A DNA stretch of 36,417 nucleotides. Origin: Synechococcales cyanobacterium bin59.metabat.ball.084. GTDB lineage: Bacteria; Cyanobacteriota; Cyanobacteriia; Cyanobacteriales; Chamaesiphonaceae. The position numbers and the translations under genes are program-made. How positions within the stretch are numbered: position 1 is the first letter of the stretch; every line of letters begins with the position of its first letter. This document shows, one piece after another, positions 2,749 through 36,417 of this stretch. The notes beneath the pieces are model-generated. The model was not told the DNA's origin. It saw nothing but the letters and a program-made list of their open reading frames with translations, and ran no database searches. The stretch lies in contig JAAFHZ010000034.1 of NCBI GenBank assembly GCA_013297675.1, forward strand, positions 1 through 36,417, given 5' to 3'.

Positions 2749-3741
2749 CTAGCTCTCAACTATCACAGTCGGAGCCGCTTCTCGATTTTTCTTGCCATTC
2801 ATCGTCTCATTGTTCCAAGTGTAAGAAGTAAATTGGGGCAAAATTTCGCTGCAAAAAGCATCAGCAGCCTTCGATCGGTAGCGGTTGGGGTTAACAATTG
2901 CCGATAGGGTCCGCTGAATTTTTAACCCCTCAATTTGGGCGCGGTACATCAAACCCATTTGCAGCTCTTTTTCGATCGCCGAAAGTGAGACGAACGCTGC
3001 GCCCAAACCAGCCTGCACAGCATTTTTAATTGCTTCGATCGAGTTTAGCTCCATCTCAATTTTGAGCCGCTTGGGGTCAATATCGCAGCGGGTCAAGACC
3101 TGATCGATTACTTTGCGAATAGTAGATTGAGAATCTAAAGAAATAAACTTTAATTTATAAATGTCTTCTTTGGGAATACTACCCAGTTTGCCTAGGGGAT
3201 AACTGCTGGGAACAATCAACGCCAGCTCATCTTCAGCATAGGGCACCACGTCTAAAGAATCATTCAGCTCGGCGGGCACTTCGCCGCCAATAATAGCCAA
3301 GTCTACCTGACCATTAGCCACACTCCAAGCTGTCCGGCGAGTGGAATGGACATGGAGCTGTACCGAAACATCGGGGTATTTTTCCCGAAAAGCGCCAATC
3401 ATCCGAGGCAATAAATAAGTGCCCGTAGTCTGAGAAGCCCCAATAATTAGAGTGCCGCCCTGTAAGTTTTGTAAATCTTCGATCGCTCGACAAGTCTCTT
3501 GGCAAAGAGTTAGAATTTTGTCTCCATAATTTAATAGCAAATGCCCCGCTTCGGTTAACTGTGCCCTGCGGCCACCTCGATCGAACAATGGAACATCTAA
3601 CTGGCGTTCGAGATTTTGCACCTGTAAACTAACCGCAGGTTGTGAAACATAAAGGCTGTCGGCGGCGCGTTTAAAACTGCCTTCGGCGGCGATGGCTTTA
3701 AGGATGCGTAGCTGATCGAGAGTAAACGGCAGATCGGACAT
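2749..3741 (-). CDS. rbcR: RbcR, LysR-type regulator of Rubisco/CO2-responsive genes
   Basis: A LysR-type transcription factor of 330 residues. The winged helix-turn-helix is at about 5-64 ([20 protein letters not shown]) and the co-inducer domain follows ([15 protein letters not shown]; later [15 protein letters not shown] and [20 protein letters not shown]). The start [20 protein letters not shown] is strongly conserved in cyanobacterial RbcR and plastid Ycf30, so I place the start at the ATG at 3741 and not at the upstream in-frame codon at 3774. RbcR orthologues control rbcLXS and carbon-fixation genes; no such target is in this window. It is divergent from the tRNA nucleotidyltransferase gene. 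Confidence 0.9.
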
Positions 3742-27545: not shown

Positions 27546-28571
27546 CTAGAGATGTCTATGCTTCGTCAAACAATTGGTAAGTTGTTGATGTAGTTGTAGT
27601 TTATTCAGCTTGCGTCCAATAATTACTAACTGGTTAGATGGCAATTCCGTTGTCATCCAAACACTATCATCAATGTGAAAGCGATGGCCGCTGAGTTGAA
27701 AAACGTGACGAGCGGGGCTTTCGTCAAACCACAAAATCCCCTTGGCTCGAAAAACCGTATCTGGTAGTTGATAGTCTAGGAACTGCTGAAATTTTTTGAG
27801 TGAAAAAGGCCGATCGCTTTTAAACGAGATTGATACAAACCCATCAGCATTTAGATGATTCGTTGTAGGGTCTTTTTTAGGTGCAGCTAAAGCTTGGAGC
27901 GAGGAACCTACCTGAGCAAAGCTTACATCTAAAATTAAGGGCAGAGGAACGATGCCGAACTGCGATCGCAAAACTTTTGCATAGTCTTTGATCGAATAAA
28001 TATATGATTCCAGGCTGTCTACGTGAGCCTCAGAGACCAGATCGGTTTTATTAACTAATACAATATCACTATAAAGTAGCTGACTTTTGGCAGCTTCGCT
28101 GTAATATTGCTCAGGTGTAAAAGTCTCAGCATCTATCATAGTGAGAATCGAATCTAACCGGGTTAGATCTCGCAAATCTGTACCCAGAAATTGCAGCACG
28201 ATCGGCAGCGGGTCTGCAACTCCAGTGGTTTCAATTATCAAATAATCAATACTGTCACTTTCCCCAGGTTTATATTGCTGAAGTATTTTATAGACAGCCT
28301 CCGTCAAATTGTTATCAATAGTACAGCAGATGCAACCATTGGTCAACTCAATCATATCTTCTGTGACAGTGACTAGAAGCTGACTGTCAATGTTAATATC
28401 ACCAAACTCATTGACTAAAACGGCAATTTTTAGACCATGATTATTACTCAGAATGTGGTTGAGTAGTGTGGTTTTGCCACTGCCTAAAAATCCAGTAATG
28501 ATCGTAACAGGCAGTCCCTGACTAGGGATTTCTAGGGCATTGGAGGTTCTTGACTGGGTGATATTAATCAT
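27546..28571 (-). CDS. COG0523-family GTPase, second paralogue, without histidine-rich loop
   Basis: A 341-residue G3E GTPase closely similar to the one at 24352-25398: GFLGSGKT (27-34), NEFGDINIDSQLLV, GCICC (79-83), IETTGVADPLPI, LVNKTDLV, and FRAKGILWFDESPARHVFQL in the C-terminal domain. In place of the histidine-rich loop it has only a short AAPKKDPTTNHLN segment. It may therefore load a different client or act without storage. It is the last gene of the minus-strand zinc operon, 14 bases after the DUF1636 gene, and converges with folE. Confidence 0.9.
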   Translation of the reverse strand: MINITQSRTSNALEIPSQGLPVTIITGFLGSGKTTLLNHILSNNHGLKIAVLVNEFGDINIDSQLLVTVTEDMIELTNGCICCTIDNNLTEAVYKILQQYKPGESDSIDYLIIETTGVADPLPIVLQFLGTDLRDLTRLDSILTMIDAETFTPEQYYSEAAKSQLLYSDIVLVNKTDLVSEAHVDSLESYIYSIKDYAKVLRSQFGIVPLPLILDVSFAQVGSSLQALAAPKKDPTTNHLNADGFVSISFKSDRPFSLKKFQQFLDYQLPDTVFRAKGILWFDESPARHVFQLSGHRFHIDDSVWMTTELPSNQLVIIGRKLNKLQLHQQLTNCLTKHRHL

Positions 28572-28585
28572 ACTGGCTTCTTAGC

Positions 28586-28969
28586 TTAAATAAAATTTGG
28601 CAGGGGCGGAATTCTGGCTAGAATGCCTTTTCTGAGGATTTCAGGACGTTCTATGCGCGGAATTAAGCCATCGGTACTGACATAATATAGTTTTGCTAAC
28701 TGCAAAATACTAATTGCACTTTGTAGCGGCGGCAAATCACCGAACATTAGGGTGGTTTTGCGAGGAGCGGCATAAGCAATTACACAGCGACGGTTACAAG
28801 CGCTCAGGCATTCAACGGCTTCGATCGAATACTCTGTCGTCAGATCCCACGCTGGCTGTAAATTTTGCAATTGGTCTAACAGGTGTTGCCCACCCCGCTG
28901 ACCGAGCAGCTCGCGCTGGGTTGATGAATAGGAGCAAGATTTACAGACAAAAATAGTGTGTTTGGTCAT
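28586..28969 (-). CDS. DUF1636 family, cysteine-rich metal or Fe-S protein
   Basis: A 127-residue small protein. Cysteines lie in FVCKSCSYSS and VECLSACNRRCVIAY, a CxxC plus CxxxCxxxC arrangement that resembles thioredoxin-like [2Fe-2S] ferredoxin domains, and DUF1636 members are so described. DUF1636 genes recur next to COG0523 genes in bacteria. The role is unknown; metal sensing, storage or electron transfer are possible. It lies eight bases after thrS and 14 before the GTPase, within the seven-gene operon. Confidence 0.8.
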   Translation of the reverse strand: MTKHTIFVCKSCSYSSTQRELLGQRGGQHLLDQLQNLQPAWDLTTEYSIEAVECLSACNRRCVIAYAAPRKTTLMFGDLPPLQSAISILQLAKLYYVSTDGLIPRIERPEILRKGILARIPPLPNFI

Positions 28970-28977
28970 AAGGCTAC

Positions 28978-30825
28978 CTAAATTTGTTGTTTGCTAATAA
29001 TTGCCTGTTGCATTCGTTCCTGAAGTGCTGCAGTAGTCAAAGAGCCATGATCTCCAGACTTTCGAGTACGAATACTAAGTGTGTTGCTAGCCATCTCCCG
29101 TTCACCAATTACCGCAACTATAGGGATTTTAGCTAGCTCGGCATTGCGAATCTGTCTACCTAAGCGCTCTTTGCTTTTATCAACTTCAACTCGATAACCT
29201 AGCTGCTTAAGCTGTGTAGCGACTGATACTGCATAGTCATAAAAATCATCAGCTACTGGCAGCAGCCGCACCTGCACCGGAGCCAGCCACAAGGGAAAAT
29301 CTCCAGCATAGTTCTCAATTAAAATCCCAAAAAATCTCTCCAATGAGCCAAAAATAGCTCGATGGATCATAATTGGTCGCTGACGAGTATCATCTGCCGC
29401 TGCATATTTCAAGTCAAAACGCTCGGGCAAATTAAAATCTACTTGAATTGTTGAACACTGCCACTGACGATCGATCGCGTCCCGAATTTTAATATCAATT
29501 TTAGGGCCATAAAATGCGCCACCACCCTCATCGACAGTATATTTCCATTCTTTAGCATCCAAGGCTCCAATTAACGCATTGGTAGCCAAATCCCATATCT
29601 CATTATCCCCAACCGATTTATCTGGGCGGGTAGAAAGATACACCTCATACTGGGTAAAGCCAAAATCTGACAATACTTGTTCGGTTAGATTCAACACACC
29701 CAAAATCTCAGAGGTAACTTGATCGGGTAAACAAAAAATGTGGGCATCATCTTGGGTAAAGCCTCGCACTCGCATTAGTCCATGGAGTGCCCCTGATCGC
29801 TCATAGCGATACACAGTACCCAATTCGGCTAGTCGAATTGGCAACTCGCGGTAAGAATGCAGTTGGTTTTTGTAAGCCAGCACATGAAAAGGACAGTTCA
29901 TCGGCTTGATTTGATAATGCTGAGACTCAATCTCCATTTGGTCAAACATGCTTTCTCGGTAAAAGTCAAAGTGGCCAGAAGTTTTCCAGAGATCAAGGTT
30001 GGCAATATGAGGAGTGTAGAGCAGCTCATAGCCGCTATCTAAATGTGCCTGCCGCCAATAGTCTTCGATTAACAGCCTAATTCTGGCTCCTTTGGGGTGC
30101 CAAAATACCAGTCCTCCACCAGCATCATATTGAATGCTAAATAGATCTAGGTCTTTTCCTATCTTGCGATGATCACGGCGTTTAGCTTCTTCTTTTTGAG
30201 TTAAATAAGCTTGCAGTTGCTCTGCGGTTTCCCAAGCAGTGCCATAGATGCGCTGTAGTTGAGGCTTGGTTTCATCCCCGCGCCAGTAGGCTCCAGCCAA
30301 GCTCTCTAAAGCAAAGGCATCAGCAACGATCTCGCCAGTGTGACTCAAATGTGGTCCAGCACACAAATCCCACCAATAATTAGGATTTTTGGATTTTACT
30401 GGGTCGAGAGCAGTATCTGTATCAAGATCATTTGTGTGACCTATAAAGTAACGGGTAATAGTTTCATCAACAGCAATTCCATCCAAAATTTCTAGCTTGT
30501 ATGGTTCATTCTCTCGCTCAATTTCTTTCCGAACTTGCTGCCGATCGATGACTTCTCTTACAACGGGCAAATTGGCTTTAATGATCCGACGCATTCTTTT
30601 CTCAATCTTAGTCAAATCATGAGGAGTGAAAGGCTCTGCTCGATCAAAATCATAGTAAAATCCAGTATCTGTCCATGGTCCGATCGCCACCTTGGTTTCA
30701 GGGAAAATCGCCTGCACTGCCATGCCCAAGACATGAGCGCAAGTGTGACGAATTCTTAGTAGCGATTGAGGATCACTAGAAAAAAGACCTGGCTTCATTA
30801 ATAACTGCTTAATTTCACTACTCAT
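28978..30825 (-). CDS. thrS: threonyl-tRNA synthetase, probable zinc-starvation copy
   Basis: A 615-residue class II synthetase. It has no N-terminal TGS domain. The editing domain retains its HxxxH and CxxxH residues (His27/His31 in RHTCAHVL; Cys155/His159 in LCAGPH). The catalytic zinc site is complete: Cys311 in MNCPFH, His362 in DDAHIFC and His488 in MIHRAIFG. A C-terminal anticodon-binding domain is present (RLLPVADDF onward). Because zinc reads threonine directly in this enzyme, a copy under a Zur box next to COG0523 genes is probably the stress paralogue, though I cannot see whether another thrS exists. Its ATG overlaps the previous stop by four bases. Confidence 0.92.
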   Translation of the reverse strand: MSSEIKQLLMKPGLFSSDPQSLLRIRHTCAHVLGMAVQAIFPETKVAIGPWTDTGFYYDFDRAEPFTPHDLTKIEKRMRRIIKANLPVVREVIDRQQVRKEIERENEPYKLEILDGIAVDETITRYFIGHTNDLDTDTALDPVKSKNPNYWWDLCAGPHLSHTGEIVADAFALESLAGAYWRGDETKPQLQRIYGTAWETAEQLQAYLTQKEEAKRRDHRKIGKDLDLFSIQYDAGGGLVFWHPKGARIRLLIEDYWRQAHLDSGYELLYTPHIANLDLWKTSGHFDFYRESMFDQMEIESQHYQIKPMNCPFHVLAYKNQLHSYRELPIRLAELGTVYRYERSGALHGLMRVRGFTQDDAHIFCLPDQVTSEILGVLNLTEQVLSDFGFTQYEVYLSTRPDKSVGDNEIWDLATNALIGALDAKEWKYTVDEGGGAFYGPKIDIKIRDAIDRQWQCSTIQVDFNLPERFDLKYAAADDTRQRPIMIHRAIFGSLERFFGILIENYAGDFPLWLAPVQVRLLPVADDFYDYAVSVATQLKQLGYRVEVDKSKERLGRQIRNAELAKIPIVAVIGEREMASNTLSIRTRKSGDHGSLTTAALQERMQQAIISKQQI

Positions 30826-31553
30826 GATGCTTTCCTATTGCCAAAACCTTTGCCAAATCCATAAGATACCTGTTTGAAATTAACCTGTCCAGAAGCAGGA
30901 GAATAAACTGTATAGCTAGCTAAATTTGGTGTTAGGCCGACGTTTCCGACTCCCACCACAAATTTGTTACTAGTCTCCATGGTTGTTGTGGGAGTGGCAC
31001 CATTAAGAGTTATCACTGTAGAAGTACTAGATCCATCTGCGATTTGATAGTTAAATTGCAGACCCGATCGACCGCAAAATAAATAATTAGCATCTAGTCT
31101 CCCCAGTCGATCACACATCACCAGAGGCGAAGTATCTGGGCGCAAATCGTCGGCAACGCTCACGCTGCTGCCATGAGTCAATAGGCAATCTAGCTCCATA
31201 AATCCAAACTCCAGCGATCGAATCCAAGTCACAGTTTCTCGTGAGACGGCATCCCAAAGAGTTTTAACCATCTCGGCTCCATATTTTTCAATCAACGCCG
31301 TGGGTTCTGGTTTTTGACCATAGGCATGCAAAATCAAACATTGTTCTTCCCACCAACCCGTACAAATTTGGGGAGTTGGTTCACCTTTGCGAGGATTTTG
31401 CAATCTTTTCACCAAGGCTTCACTAGTAGCATTTGGCCCGACCAAATCGCCCAAGATGTACAACTCATCTACTTGATGCTGCTGAACGTCTTGTAGCACT
31501 GCTTCATAGGCGGTCAAATTGCCCACTAATCCACTTAAAATCGCCCATTTCAT
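30822..31553 (-). CDS. metallophosphatase-like pseudoenzyme
   Basis: A 243-residue protein with the calcineurin-like phosphoesterase layout but mostly lost ligands. The D-x-H motif is replaced by SGLVGN (7-12), GNHD by GWWEE (66-70), and GHTH by CGRSG (160-164). Only GDLVG with Asp36 and THGSS with His127 remain. Homology to the next gene upstream is visible in LGDLVG, LLTHGSS and LFCG at matching spacing. It is probably a non-catalytic partner or regulator. It starts two bases after the active-looking paralogue and overlaps thrS by four bases (ATGA), so it is tightly coupled to both. Confidence 0.72.
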   Translation of the reverse strand: MKWAILSGLVGNLTAYEAVLQDVQQHQVDELYILGDLVGPNATSEALVKRLQNPRKGEPTPQICTGWWEEQCLILHAYGQKPEPTALIEKYGAEMVKTLWDAVSRETVTWIRSLEFGFMELDCLLTHGSSVSVADDLRPDTSPLVMCDRLGRLDANYLFCGRSGLQFNYQIADGSSTSTVITLNGATPTTTMETSNKFVVGVGNVGLTPNLASYTVYSPASGQVNFKQVSYGFGKGFGNRKAS

Positions 31554-31555
31554 AG

Positions 31556-32368
31556 CTACCTCTCACATACATGGCTAGGATCATCGGCACGTTCAGCAAA
31601 CTCTAAACCCTGTGCTAATCGCCAAGCAAAAATTGGCGGCAAGCCTTTTTCGATAATATCTGCACAGGTTTTTTGGTAGTCGTATTCTATTTCTCGAATT
31701 GTCACTAGCTGATCATCAGTATCATAGAGTACATAAGTTGCATGAGGTCGCCCGTGACGTGGCTCACCTACAGAACCAGCATTCACAATGCGTCGTACCG
31801 ATGGGGTAAATTGATAGTGGGCATCTTTTTGTCCTTGCTGCTCTACTTTAACCAGCATTTTTGTTTGATCCAAAGTCCGCACGTAAGGCACATGGGTATG
31901 GCCGCAGAATAACACATTAGAGCCAGTTGATAATACCCGCTCCAAAGCAGTAAAAGCATTCACATCGGGCAATAAATATTCATGCTGACCATTGGGGCTA
32001 CCATGGACAAAGCTCATATTTTTTTCTTTGATAGTTAGAGGTAGCTGAGCTAGATATTCGCGGGTTTCTGGGTGAATTTGTTGATCTGTCCAGGCATGAG
32101 CGGCCTTGCCCCGACTCTCGGCTAATAGCGAAGGGTAGCTACAATCACAGGCATTTAAGCCTTCTACAATATCTTCATCCCAACAGCCTTGACAGGTGGG
32201 GATATCTAAAGACCTGATCATTTCTACTACGGCATTTGGGTGCGGTCCATAGCCTACTAAGTCCCCGAGACAAAATATTTGTTCGGCTTTGTGGTCATCA
32301 ATATCTGACAATACGGCGTTGAGCGCTTCGTAGTTGCCATGAATACAAGACATAACAGCAATTTTCAT
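31556..32368 (-). CDS. calcineurin-like metallophosphoesterase with altered metal site
   Basis: A 270-residue YfcE/MJ0936-like phosphoesterase. Present ligands are His10, Asp36 in CLGDLVGYGPH, His122 in FVHGSPN, and His157/His159 in LFCGHTHVPYV. The first motif reads SCIHGN, with Cys8 where aspartate is usual, and the GNHD motif reads TCQGCWDE (Cys59, Cys62). Several further cysteines are nearby. The protein may still hydrolyse phosphoesters, perhaps with a different metal; the substrate is unknown. It starts within the previous stop codon (TAATG), and the pseudoenzyme follows two bases later. Confidence 0.78.
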   Translation of the reverse strand: MKIAVMSCIHGNYEALNAVLSDIDDHKAEQIFCLGDLVGYGPHPNAVVEMIRSLDIPTCQGCWDEDIVEGLNACDCSYPSLLAESRGKAAHAWTDQQIHPETREYLAQLPLTIKEKNMSFVHGSPNGQHEYLLPDVNAFTALERVLSTGSNVLFCGHTHVPYVRTLDQTKMLVKVEQQGQKDAHYQFTPSVRRIVNAGSVGEPRHGRPHATYVLYDTDDQLVTIREIEYDYQKTCADIIEKGLPPIFAWRLAQGLEFAERADDPSHVCER

Positions 32369-33123
32369 TAGACTGGCTCCAACATATTTTCTTTGATTTT
32401 GGATTGGTAATAGGCGATCGCCTCATCACTAAGGCAGCATTCAGCTAAGGTGTCACCGATCGACTGCCGATCTAGACTAACTCCAATTATTTCTAAGCCG
32501 CTAAAGCGACTGGGGCGACCGTCTAACCACAGGGGCAAATTTAGCTCTCGGTAGCGGTTTTTGTGACCTGCTACAAAGTCAAAATAAAAAGAGCGGCCAT
32601 CAGACAAATCAAAAATTCCTTTGGCGCGTTGCACTAAACCATAAGCACCTTGGGTTAGCTCTGCCCATAGCGTATCAATGCTGGCGGGATCAATGACTTG
32701 GTAAGAAAGATCCGATCGCCATAAATCTTTTGACTCAGTTGAGGATACTAATTGACCAGTCTCTACTACATCAGCCCACTGGTGCCATTCAGTATTTAGG
32801 TTGAGTAGGTTAGGCGGGACGATCGCTACTTTTTGAGCATCCAAGCCAGTCAATAGCGATTCAGCCGTAGCAAGGGTTAGATGAAATCCTATTTCAATAT
32901 AAATAGTGGCATCAGAATAATGCAATTTATCGACTTGCTGATCGGTAAATACTGTCAACTGAGGAAACTCGGTGAGCAGATGAAAACTATCGATCGGGGT
33001 AGCCTCGGCCTTGGGACAAAAGTACCCTACCGAATCAACAGCTCCAGCTAACTGCTGAGTAATCCAAGTGGTTTTACCCACTCCTGCCGCCCCAGCTACG
33101 GCAACAATTGATGGCTTGTTCAT
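32368..33123 (-). CDS. P-loop GTPase distantly related to COG0523, no CxCC motif
   Basis: A 251-residue protein. Walker A is GAAGVGKTTW (11-20). A C-terminal segment (QRAKGIFDLSDGRSFYFDFV) matches the CobW C-terminal domain. The central GTPase motifs are poor: there is no clear NKxD, and the GCICC metal motif of true COG0523 proteins is absent. It may bind nucleotide and partner with the real chaperones. Its start overlaps the stop of the upstream 52-residue gene (ATGA), and its stop overlaps the next start (TAATG). Confidence 0.7.
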   Translation of the reverse strand: MNKPSIVAVAGAAGVGKTTWITQQLAGAVDSVGYFCPKAEATPIDSFHLLTEFPQLTVFTDQQVDKLHYSDATIYIEIGFHLTLATAESLLTGLDAQKVAIVPPNLLNLNTEWHQWADVVETGQLVSSTESKDLWRSDLSYQVIDPASIDTLWAELTQGAYGLVQRAKGIFDLSDGRSFYFDFVAGHKNRYRELNLPLWLDGRPSRFSGLEIIGVSLDRQSIGDTLAECCLSDEAIAYYQSKIKENMLEPV

Positions 33124-33278
33124 TTTTTCAGACCATTAACTATCAAACTTGGGACTTGATCAATGCGATCAGCAGTAATCTGCCAAACTTCTTCCCATTG
33201 CTGGGTAATAATACTTTTCCATTGCTGACCATATCGAGAAGATAGAGGGGAGCTTAAACGAATCGATGATTTTGACAT
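33120..33278 (-). CDS. 52-residue protein, first gene of the Zur-controlled operon
   Basis: A short frame from the ATG at 33278 to a TGA at 33120-33122 that overlaps the next ATG by four bases. It begins MSKSSIRLSSPLSSRYGQQW and contains three tryptophans (QQWKSIITQQWEEVWQ), then a helix-like tail ending VNGLKK. No signal peptide, no membrane segment, no cysteine or histidine, so it is not itself an obvious metal binder. I do not recognise it. The ATGA coupling and the Zur box 26 bases upstream argue that it is translated. Confidence 0.6.
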   Translation of the reverse strand: MSKSSIRLSSPLSSRYGQQWKSIITQQWEEVWQITADRIDQVPSLIVNGLKK

Positions 33279-33304
33279 GAGCAGGAAACCTAATCAAAGC
33301 TTAG

Positions 33305-33319
33305 TGATAATGATTATCA
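33305..33319 (-). promoter_or_regulatory. Zur/Fur-type operator of the seven-gene operon
   Basis: TGATAAT-G-ATTATCA is a perfect 7-1-7 palindrome identical in arms to the box at 23262-23276. It lies 26 bases upstream of the ATG at 33278. Confidence 0.88.
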
Positions 33320-33430
33320 TTCTTACTACCCTACCTGATACTTGGATTATTTACCAGCTCTTTTCAAGAAAATTCGGAAGGCTATTAGCTTAAAGCCCTT
33401 ATACAGACTTGACTTTAGAATAAATCCGTT

Positions 33431-33457
33431 TTGAGAATGATTATCATTCTCAAAATT
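33431..33457. promoter_or_regulatory. second Zur/Fur-like palindrome, 27 bases
   Basis: TTTTGAGAATGAT-T-ATCATTCTCAAAA is a perfect 13-1-13 palindrome. Its core GAATGATTATCATTC is closer to a Fur-like sequence than to the other two boxes. Its centre is 132 bases from that of the first box. It may strengthen repression or control something to the right that has been lost. Confidence 0.75.
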
Positions 33458-33550
33458 ATGTTACTTTGAGAACAATCCTAAAATCAAGATTATTTCTGAT
33501 AAGGTTGGCAGCATACATACATATTTCAATACTATTCAGATTCAATTTAA

Positions 33551-33840
33551 GAAAAAACACCACCTGCAGACGGTGAGCCAATTAGATGGATGCTATTAAC
33601 TAGCTTACCAATAGAAGCTTTGGAGCAAGCTTGTCAATATGTATACTGGTGTAATTTACGTTGGTTGATTGAAAGATTTCACTACACATTAAAAAGTGGT
33701 TGTAAAATTGAAAAATTGCAATTAGAAACTAAAGAAAGACTGCTCACACATTAGCAACTTCTTATATAGTAGCATGGAGGCTATGCGTAATTAGCCTCTA
33801 CGATGTCCTCCGCATAAGCAATACATCGAGATTTGCGTAG
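33551..33840 (+). pseudogene. IS4/Tn5-type transposase remnant, frameshifted
   Basis: From 33560 the frame reads PPADGEPIRWMLLTSLPIEA and then WLIERFHYTLKSGCKIEKLQ, the YREK-like C-terminal region of IS4-family (Tn5-like) transposases. It ends at a stop at 33752. In another frame from 33742 the match continues (HTLATSYIVAWRL) to a stop at 33838. The N-terminal half and the end are missing, and no terminal inverted repeats were found. This is an old, dead insertion sequence. It accounts for most of the 620-base stretch right of the zinc operon that has no intact gene. Confidence 0.85.
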
Positions 33841-34896: not shown

Positions 34897-35226
34897 TTAC
34901 GAAAGCAAAGCGATCGCCTGCTCCAGCAAATCAGGATCTGCACTATTTAACCAAATAATCTCAGGAATCCCCCGAAACCAAGTGCGCTGGCGTTTAGCAA
35001 ACTGGCGAGTATGAAGAATAGTTAACTCGATCGCCTCTGCCAAACTAATTTCACCCTTCAGATACTGACGCATTTCGGCATAGCCCAAAGTATCTAAATT
35101 AGGTAAATTCCAACCATATTCAGCAATTAAATCGCGCACTTCTTGCTCCCAACCCAGCTCAATCATCTGGCTAGCTCTTTGCTGAATACGCTGTTCTAAA
35201 TTAGGGCAATCTAGACCGACTATCAA
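34897..35226 (-). pseudogene. miaA: 3'-terminal fragment of miaA (copy 1)
   Basis: About 109 codons of the C-terminal third of tRNA dimethylallyltransferase, which adds an isopentenyl group to A37 of tRNAs. It reads GLDCPNLEQRIQQRASQMIE, then NLDTLGYAEMRQYLKGEISL and [15 protein letters not shown]. The N-terminal part with the P-loop and catalytic residues is missing; the frame closes with TAA three codons before the homology begins (35227-35235), so it is 5'-truncated. It nearly repeats the sequence at 36289-36417. It cannot encode a working enzyme. Confidence 0.88.
34911..35039. repeat. direct repeat, left copy (miaA 3' end)
   Basis: Matches 36289-36417 at 128 of 129 positions with no gaps (the sole difference is G at 34938 versus T at 36316). 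The true length is not known because the right copy runs off the window. Confidence 0.95.
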
Positions 35227-36265: not shown

Positions 36266-36417
36266 CTACTGGGATTGAGAAATCAAATCGATCGCCTGCT
36301 CCAGCAAATCAGGATCTTCACTATTTAACCAAATAATCTCAGGAATCCCCCGAAACCAAGTGCGCTGGCGTTTAGCAAACTGGCGAGTATGAAGAATAGT
36401 TAACTCGATCGCCTCTG
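36266..36417 (-). CDS. miaA: miaA (copy 2), C-terminal part, 5' end beyond the window
   Basis: The minus frame enters from the right edge and ends at the TAG at 36266-36268. It reads [20 protein letters not shown], then [18 protein letters not shown]. It is likely the intact tRNA dimethylallyltransferase gene, but the catalytic part lies outside. It differs from copy 1 in its last residues (DLISQSQ against ALLS). Confidence 0.85.
36289..36417. repeat. direct repeat, right copy (miaA 3' end)
   Basis: Partner of 34911-35039, offset by exactly 1378 bases. It continues past the window edge. Confidence 0.95.

Follow-up and report, generated by a model that had tools for sequence, protein, structure and literature searches.

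Described Zur-regulated operons

The thrS2 operon of Anabaena sp. PCC 7120 includes the gene of the threonyl-tRNA synthetase ThrS2 and flanking genes, among them an adjacent COG0523 gene. Zur represses it, and a shortage of zinc induces it (PMC4787780). EMSA of the region upstream of all4725 is described in a further report (PMC10957091). Paralogues of ThrRS, HemB and HisI share Zur regulons with COG0523 genes, and the CxCC motif is common to COG0523 proteins (PMC2770081).

The zinc operon of the window

The window is the whole stretch of DNA analysed (36,417 nt; contig JAAFHZ010000034.1 of Synechococcales cyanobacterium bin59.metabat.ball.084). It carries a zinc operon on the reverse strand. 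The first conserved gene (32368..33123) encodes a P-loop G3E-like GTPase of 251 aa. This protein has a weak match to the CobW_C domain (E 2e-4; 21.5 bits for a cut-off of 22), and the CxCC motif common to COG0523 proteins is absent from its sequence. The following genes encode a metallophosphoesterase of 270 aa (31556..32368; conserved beside the GTPase), a phosphoesterase-like protein of 243 aa (30822..31553), a second threonyl-tRNA synthetase, ThrS2 (28978..30825), a Cys-containing protein of 127 aa (28586..28969; homologue found beside the GTPase in loci L119 and L122) and a CobW/COG0523-type protein of 341 aa with GCICC (27546..28571). Past the operon, the opposite strand encodes FolE, a porin, another CobW-type protein and a ZnuA-like protein.

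The predicted promoter carries a perfect palindromic Zur box, TGATAATCATTATCA (33305..33319), with the consensus found at orthologous loci; this predicted site marks the operon as putatively Zur-regulated. A second Zur-like palindrome, TGAGAATGATTATCATTCTCA (33432..33452), is perfect over 21 bases and lies 127 nt upstream of the first. A transposase-like fragment (33590-33754) is found just upstream of this second palindrome. Farther on, two near-identical copies of a gene-end fragment that looks like MiaA (34897-35226 and 36266-36415) are about 1.4 kb apart; the latter runs off the contig end.

The 52-codon frame

An ATG-started open frame of 52 codons, here called ORF52, is present at 33120..33278 on the reverse strand; its translation is MSKSSIRLSSPLSSRYGQQWKSIITQQWEEVWQITADRIDQVPSLIVNGLKK. 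The preliminary description placed it at the head of the operon, 26 nt past the Zur box and with an ATGA overlap into the next gene. The coordinates agree: the frame starts at 33278, the box ends 26 nt before it, and the TGA of ORF52 and the ATG of the GTPase gene overlap at 33123-33120. The composition, given as tryptophan-rich, basic and devoid of Cys and His, also stands (three Trp, net charge +3, no Cys or His). Thr codons are only two. No clear or strong Shine-Dalgarno sequence precedes the start of ORF52 or that of the GTPase gene. The lack of a strong Shine-Dalgarno sequence is not unusual in cyanobacteria.

The overlap had been taken as a strong sign of translation. This does not hold: the GTPase gene begins with ATGAAC, which forces a stop at this point on every frame that is open in that register. 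The stop/start overlap typical of a coupled leader cistron is therefore present but nearly automatic, and weak as evidence. The start codon is directly followed by A in 59 of 83 GTPase loci (own locus counted).

Absence of homologues

No homologue of the ORF52 protein was found in 60 relatives, 390 genomes of the class and 391 genomes of the order (overlapping sets, roughly 800 genomes). Searches of Pfam, NCBIfam, PHROGs and PDB gave nothing above chance, and those of viral contigs and plasmid collections gave no match. The class-wide matches at E 0.003-0.05 were rejected: this is the chance level for 390 genomes, identities are low, and many matches contain stops or lie inside long unrelated frames.

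GTPase orthologues are present in 79 of 149 genomes; the sole other genome of the genus is without the gene. At about 100 orthologous GTPase loci, a set in which some genomes count twice, neither tblastn nor inspection by eye revealed a frame homologous to ORF52. The Zur box of these loci mostly lies 15-66 nt before the GTPase gene, so most have no room for such a frame. No ORF52-like partner gene adjoins the GTPase in any relative examined. The preliminary description regarded the frame as a missed conserved gene, possibly a regulator or a partner of the GTPase. It proposed a search for conserved small frames upstream of orthologous GTPase genes and named their absence as the result that would refute it; this absence is what was observed. 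In the genomes searched, conservation is contradicted, and the regulator and partner roles are left unsupported. Since the closest GTPases are only 54% identical, a gene that evolves fast and occurs only in close relatives outside the sampled set is conceivable. The frame is real but appears restricted to its lineage; nothing points to a conserved function, and the evidence that it is translated is modest.

Duplication of the promoter

The promoter, the leader and the first eight codons of ORF52 (33254..33460, reverse strand) are duplicated in the same genome (contig C1, about 84.4-84.6 kb). A DNA search of the genome identified the second copy at C1 84397-84556, with 80% identity over 159 nt. 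It spans the leader, the Zur box, which is degenerate there, and the codons of MSKSSIRL. The ATG start is kept. Only these eight codons can be compared for amino-acid constraint; they show two synonymous changes and no non-synonymous ones. A weaker similarity reaches across the upstream second Zur box (G000:C1 84397-84620; L066 about 3398-3620), whose counterpart is also degenerate. The C1 region is a second, decaying version of the zinc operon promoter with two degenerate Zur boxes; either copy may have been the donor. The last 134 nt of the ORF52 region have no source that could be found.

The C1 copy ends at the boundary of a decayed IS3-like element (boundaries set from its other copies in the genome). 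This element is followed by part of an oxidoreductase gene. In many relatives, the oxidoreductase gene is divergent from the GTPase gene and lies beside the Zur box of the latter; the present genome has it intact at C1:95 kb, where it has a Zur box to itself. The second promoter copy cut by an IS and the position of the oxidoreductase gene indicate that rearrangement has affected the zinc promoters in this genome. What is new at this locus is the second occurrence, at another place in the genome, of both Zur boxes together with the leader and the eight initial codons, which an IS cuts there.

Gene turnover upstream of the GTPase in relatives

In some genomes, complete or nearly complete genes encoding FolE, HemB, ThrS2, ZnuA, CobW-type or SCO5389-family proteins precede the GTPase gene. 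Others carry stubs: HisI in L010 (NCBIfam E 4e-4), HemB in L138 (E 0.002) and the N-terminus of ThrS2 in L141 (72% identity over residues 18-49). These three stubs appear to record that zinc-enzyme paralogues have decayed more than once at a single site. In L192, an internally shortened SCO5389-family frame of 48 aa starts 155 nt before the GTPase gene, with the Zur box at -205. In cyanobacteria, the interval between Zur box and GTPase has thus repeatedly gained genes that then decayed or were kept.

Proteins of the SCO5389 family (PF20704, 'KH_NucS_shadow') are encoded directly upstream of the GTPase in L008, L060, L195 and L192, which suggests a link of this family with zinc starvation. A likeness, seen by eye, between ORF52 and the 139-aa SCO5389-family ORF of L008 gave no alignment. 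As ORF52 matches none of the stubs, it could be a stub that is no longer recognisable, a chimera that joins the duplicated start to other DNA, or a frame that has newly opened.

Alternative explanations

That ORF52 opened by chance in a new 5′ leader that is not translated, with the GTPase initiated independently, is somewhat unlikely. Such frames are expected in 1.2-2.7% of leaders of this length: when the box-to-GTPase spacer is shuffled with its dinucleotides kept, 1.2% of the shuffles contain a frame of 52 or more codons in the ATGA register, and 2.7% contain one if every register is allowed and the frame ends within 30 nt. Across about 370 kb of the same genome, 93 genes possess free spacers of 184 nt or longer; besides that of ORF52, one of the 92 comparable spacers holds such a frame (48 codons or more). 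ORF52 is unusual by these measures, yet not conclusive as a gene. The automatic ATGA also agrees with chance. By codon usage, ORF52 falls between genes and non-coding frames: its score is at the 85th percentile among spacer ORFs, at the 92nd among shadow ORFs and at the 35th among the N-termini of true genes. A score above 85% of spacer ORFs argues against chance, as do the ATG kept in the C1 duplicate and the purely synonymous changes there, but this score is also compatible with non-coding sequence: the likelihood ratio estimated from these distributions is only about 2. The structure predicted by AlphaFold, a long single helix (pLDDT 76), was given no weight as support for a protein; an out-of-frame control yields the same kind of helix, which agrees with a chance frame.

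It is quite improbable that ORF52 is what truncation or decay past recognition has left of an earlier gene under Zur control. Stubs of HisI, HemB, ThrS2 and SCO5389-family genes do recur at the equivalent position in other genomes, but ORF52 has no Pfam match, its other frames match at chance level only, and it does not align to the SCO5389-family protein. A genuine functional orphan, i.e. a small protein with an amphipathic helix working with the zinc machinery, for example with the GTPase, is very improbable: the long predicted helix, its helical moment (p about 0.03) and the place in the operon would suit it, but they are set against the lack of homologues in the roughly 800 genomes, the similar fold of the control frame and the lack of an adjoining partner gene in relatives. 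The preliminary description also proposed a leader peptide. By position, ORF52 could be a leader cistron. A regulatory leader peptide acting by attenuation is almost certainly wrong, although the frame follows the promoter and has three Trp codons. No terminator-like site was found in the leader between box and GTPase, and no alternative terminator structure follows a codon run; searches of the leader gave no riboswitch or other RNA family and no unusual fold (z-score +0.94); and the Thr codons are few for an operon that holds ThrS.

Proposed origin

On balance, ORF52 is probably a lineage-specific leader cistron, apparently a recent and local product of a promoter rearrangement and not a conserved gene, and is perhaps translated and coupled to the GTPase. 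The rearrangement would have placed the Zur-box promoter, together with its leader and a new start codon, about 180 nt upstream of the GTPase gene. In relatives, this gene lies almost directly after its Zur box; here the resulting frame stays open up to its start. Under zinc shortage, with Zur released, transcription probably starts close to the box; ORF52 may then be translated first, and the ribosomes handed on to the GTPase gene across the ATGA overlap. ORF52 may be kept open for this coupling and not for its peptide. A narrower version, namely a young coding frame from the duplicated Zur promoter, kept open to relay ribosomes to the GTPase after the promoter moved away, is unlikely.

The leader cistron of rearranged origin is favoured by the lack of a homologous ORF in relatives, the promoter duplicate cut by an IS, the synonymous-only changes, the gene insertions and decayed stubs of independent relatives, a rarity by chance of 1-3% and a codon score above that of most non-coding frames. 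Against it stand the fit of the same score to non-coding sequence, the lack of a clear Shine-Dalgarno sequence and the 134 nt without source. A decayed older Zur box was also sought just before the GTPase start, and no remnant above chance was found (p 0.24). If translated, ORF52 would be a modest case of a leader frame born after a promoter was rearranged. It is also a caution that an ATGA overlap and a fitting position are not proof of a gene.

Comparison with known systems

The shortened SCO5389-family frame of L192 also lies between Zur box (at -205) and GTPase; it is recognisable as a known family, whereas ORF52 has no similarity to the SCO5389 family. Zur-regulated clusters of COG0523 genes with zinc-enzyme paralogues (PMC2770081) have a likeness here, but the first GTPase of the present operon is without CxCC. 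The operon matches the thrS2 operon of Anabaena sp. PCC 7120; its control by Zur is predicted from the boxes only. The passages considered of the Anabaena reports (PMC4787780; PMC10957091) name four flanking genes but do not mention a frame of 52 aa at the head, whereas ORF52 leads the operon described here.
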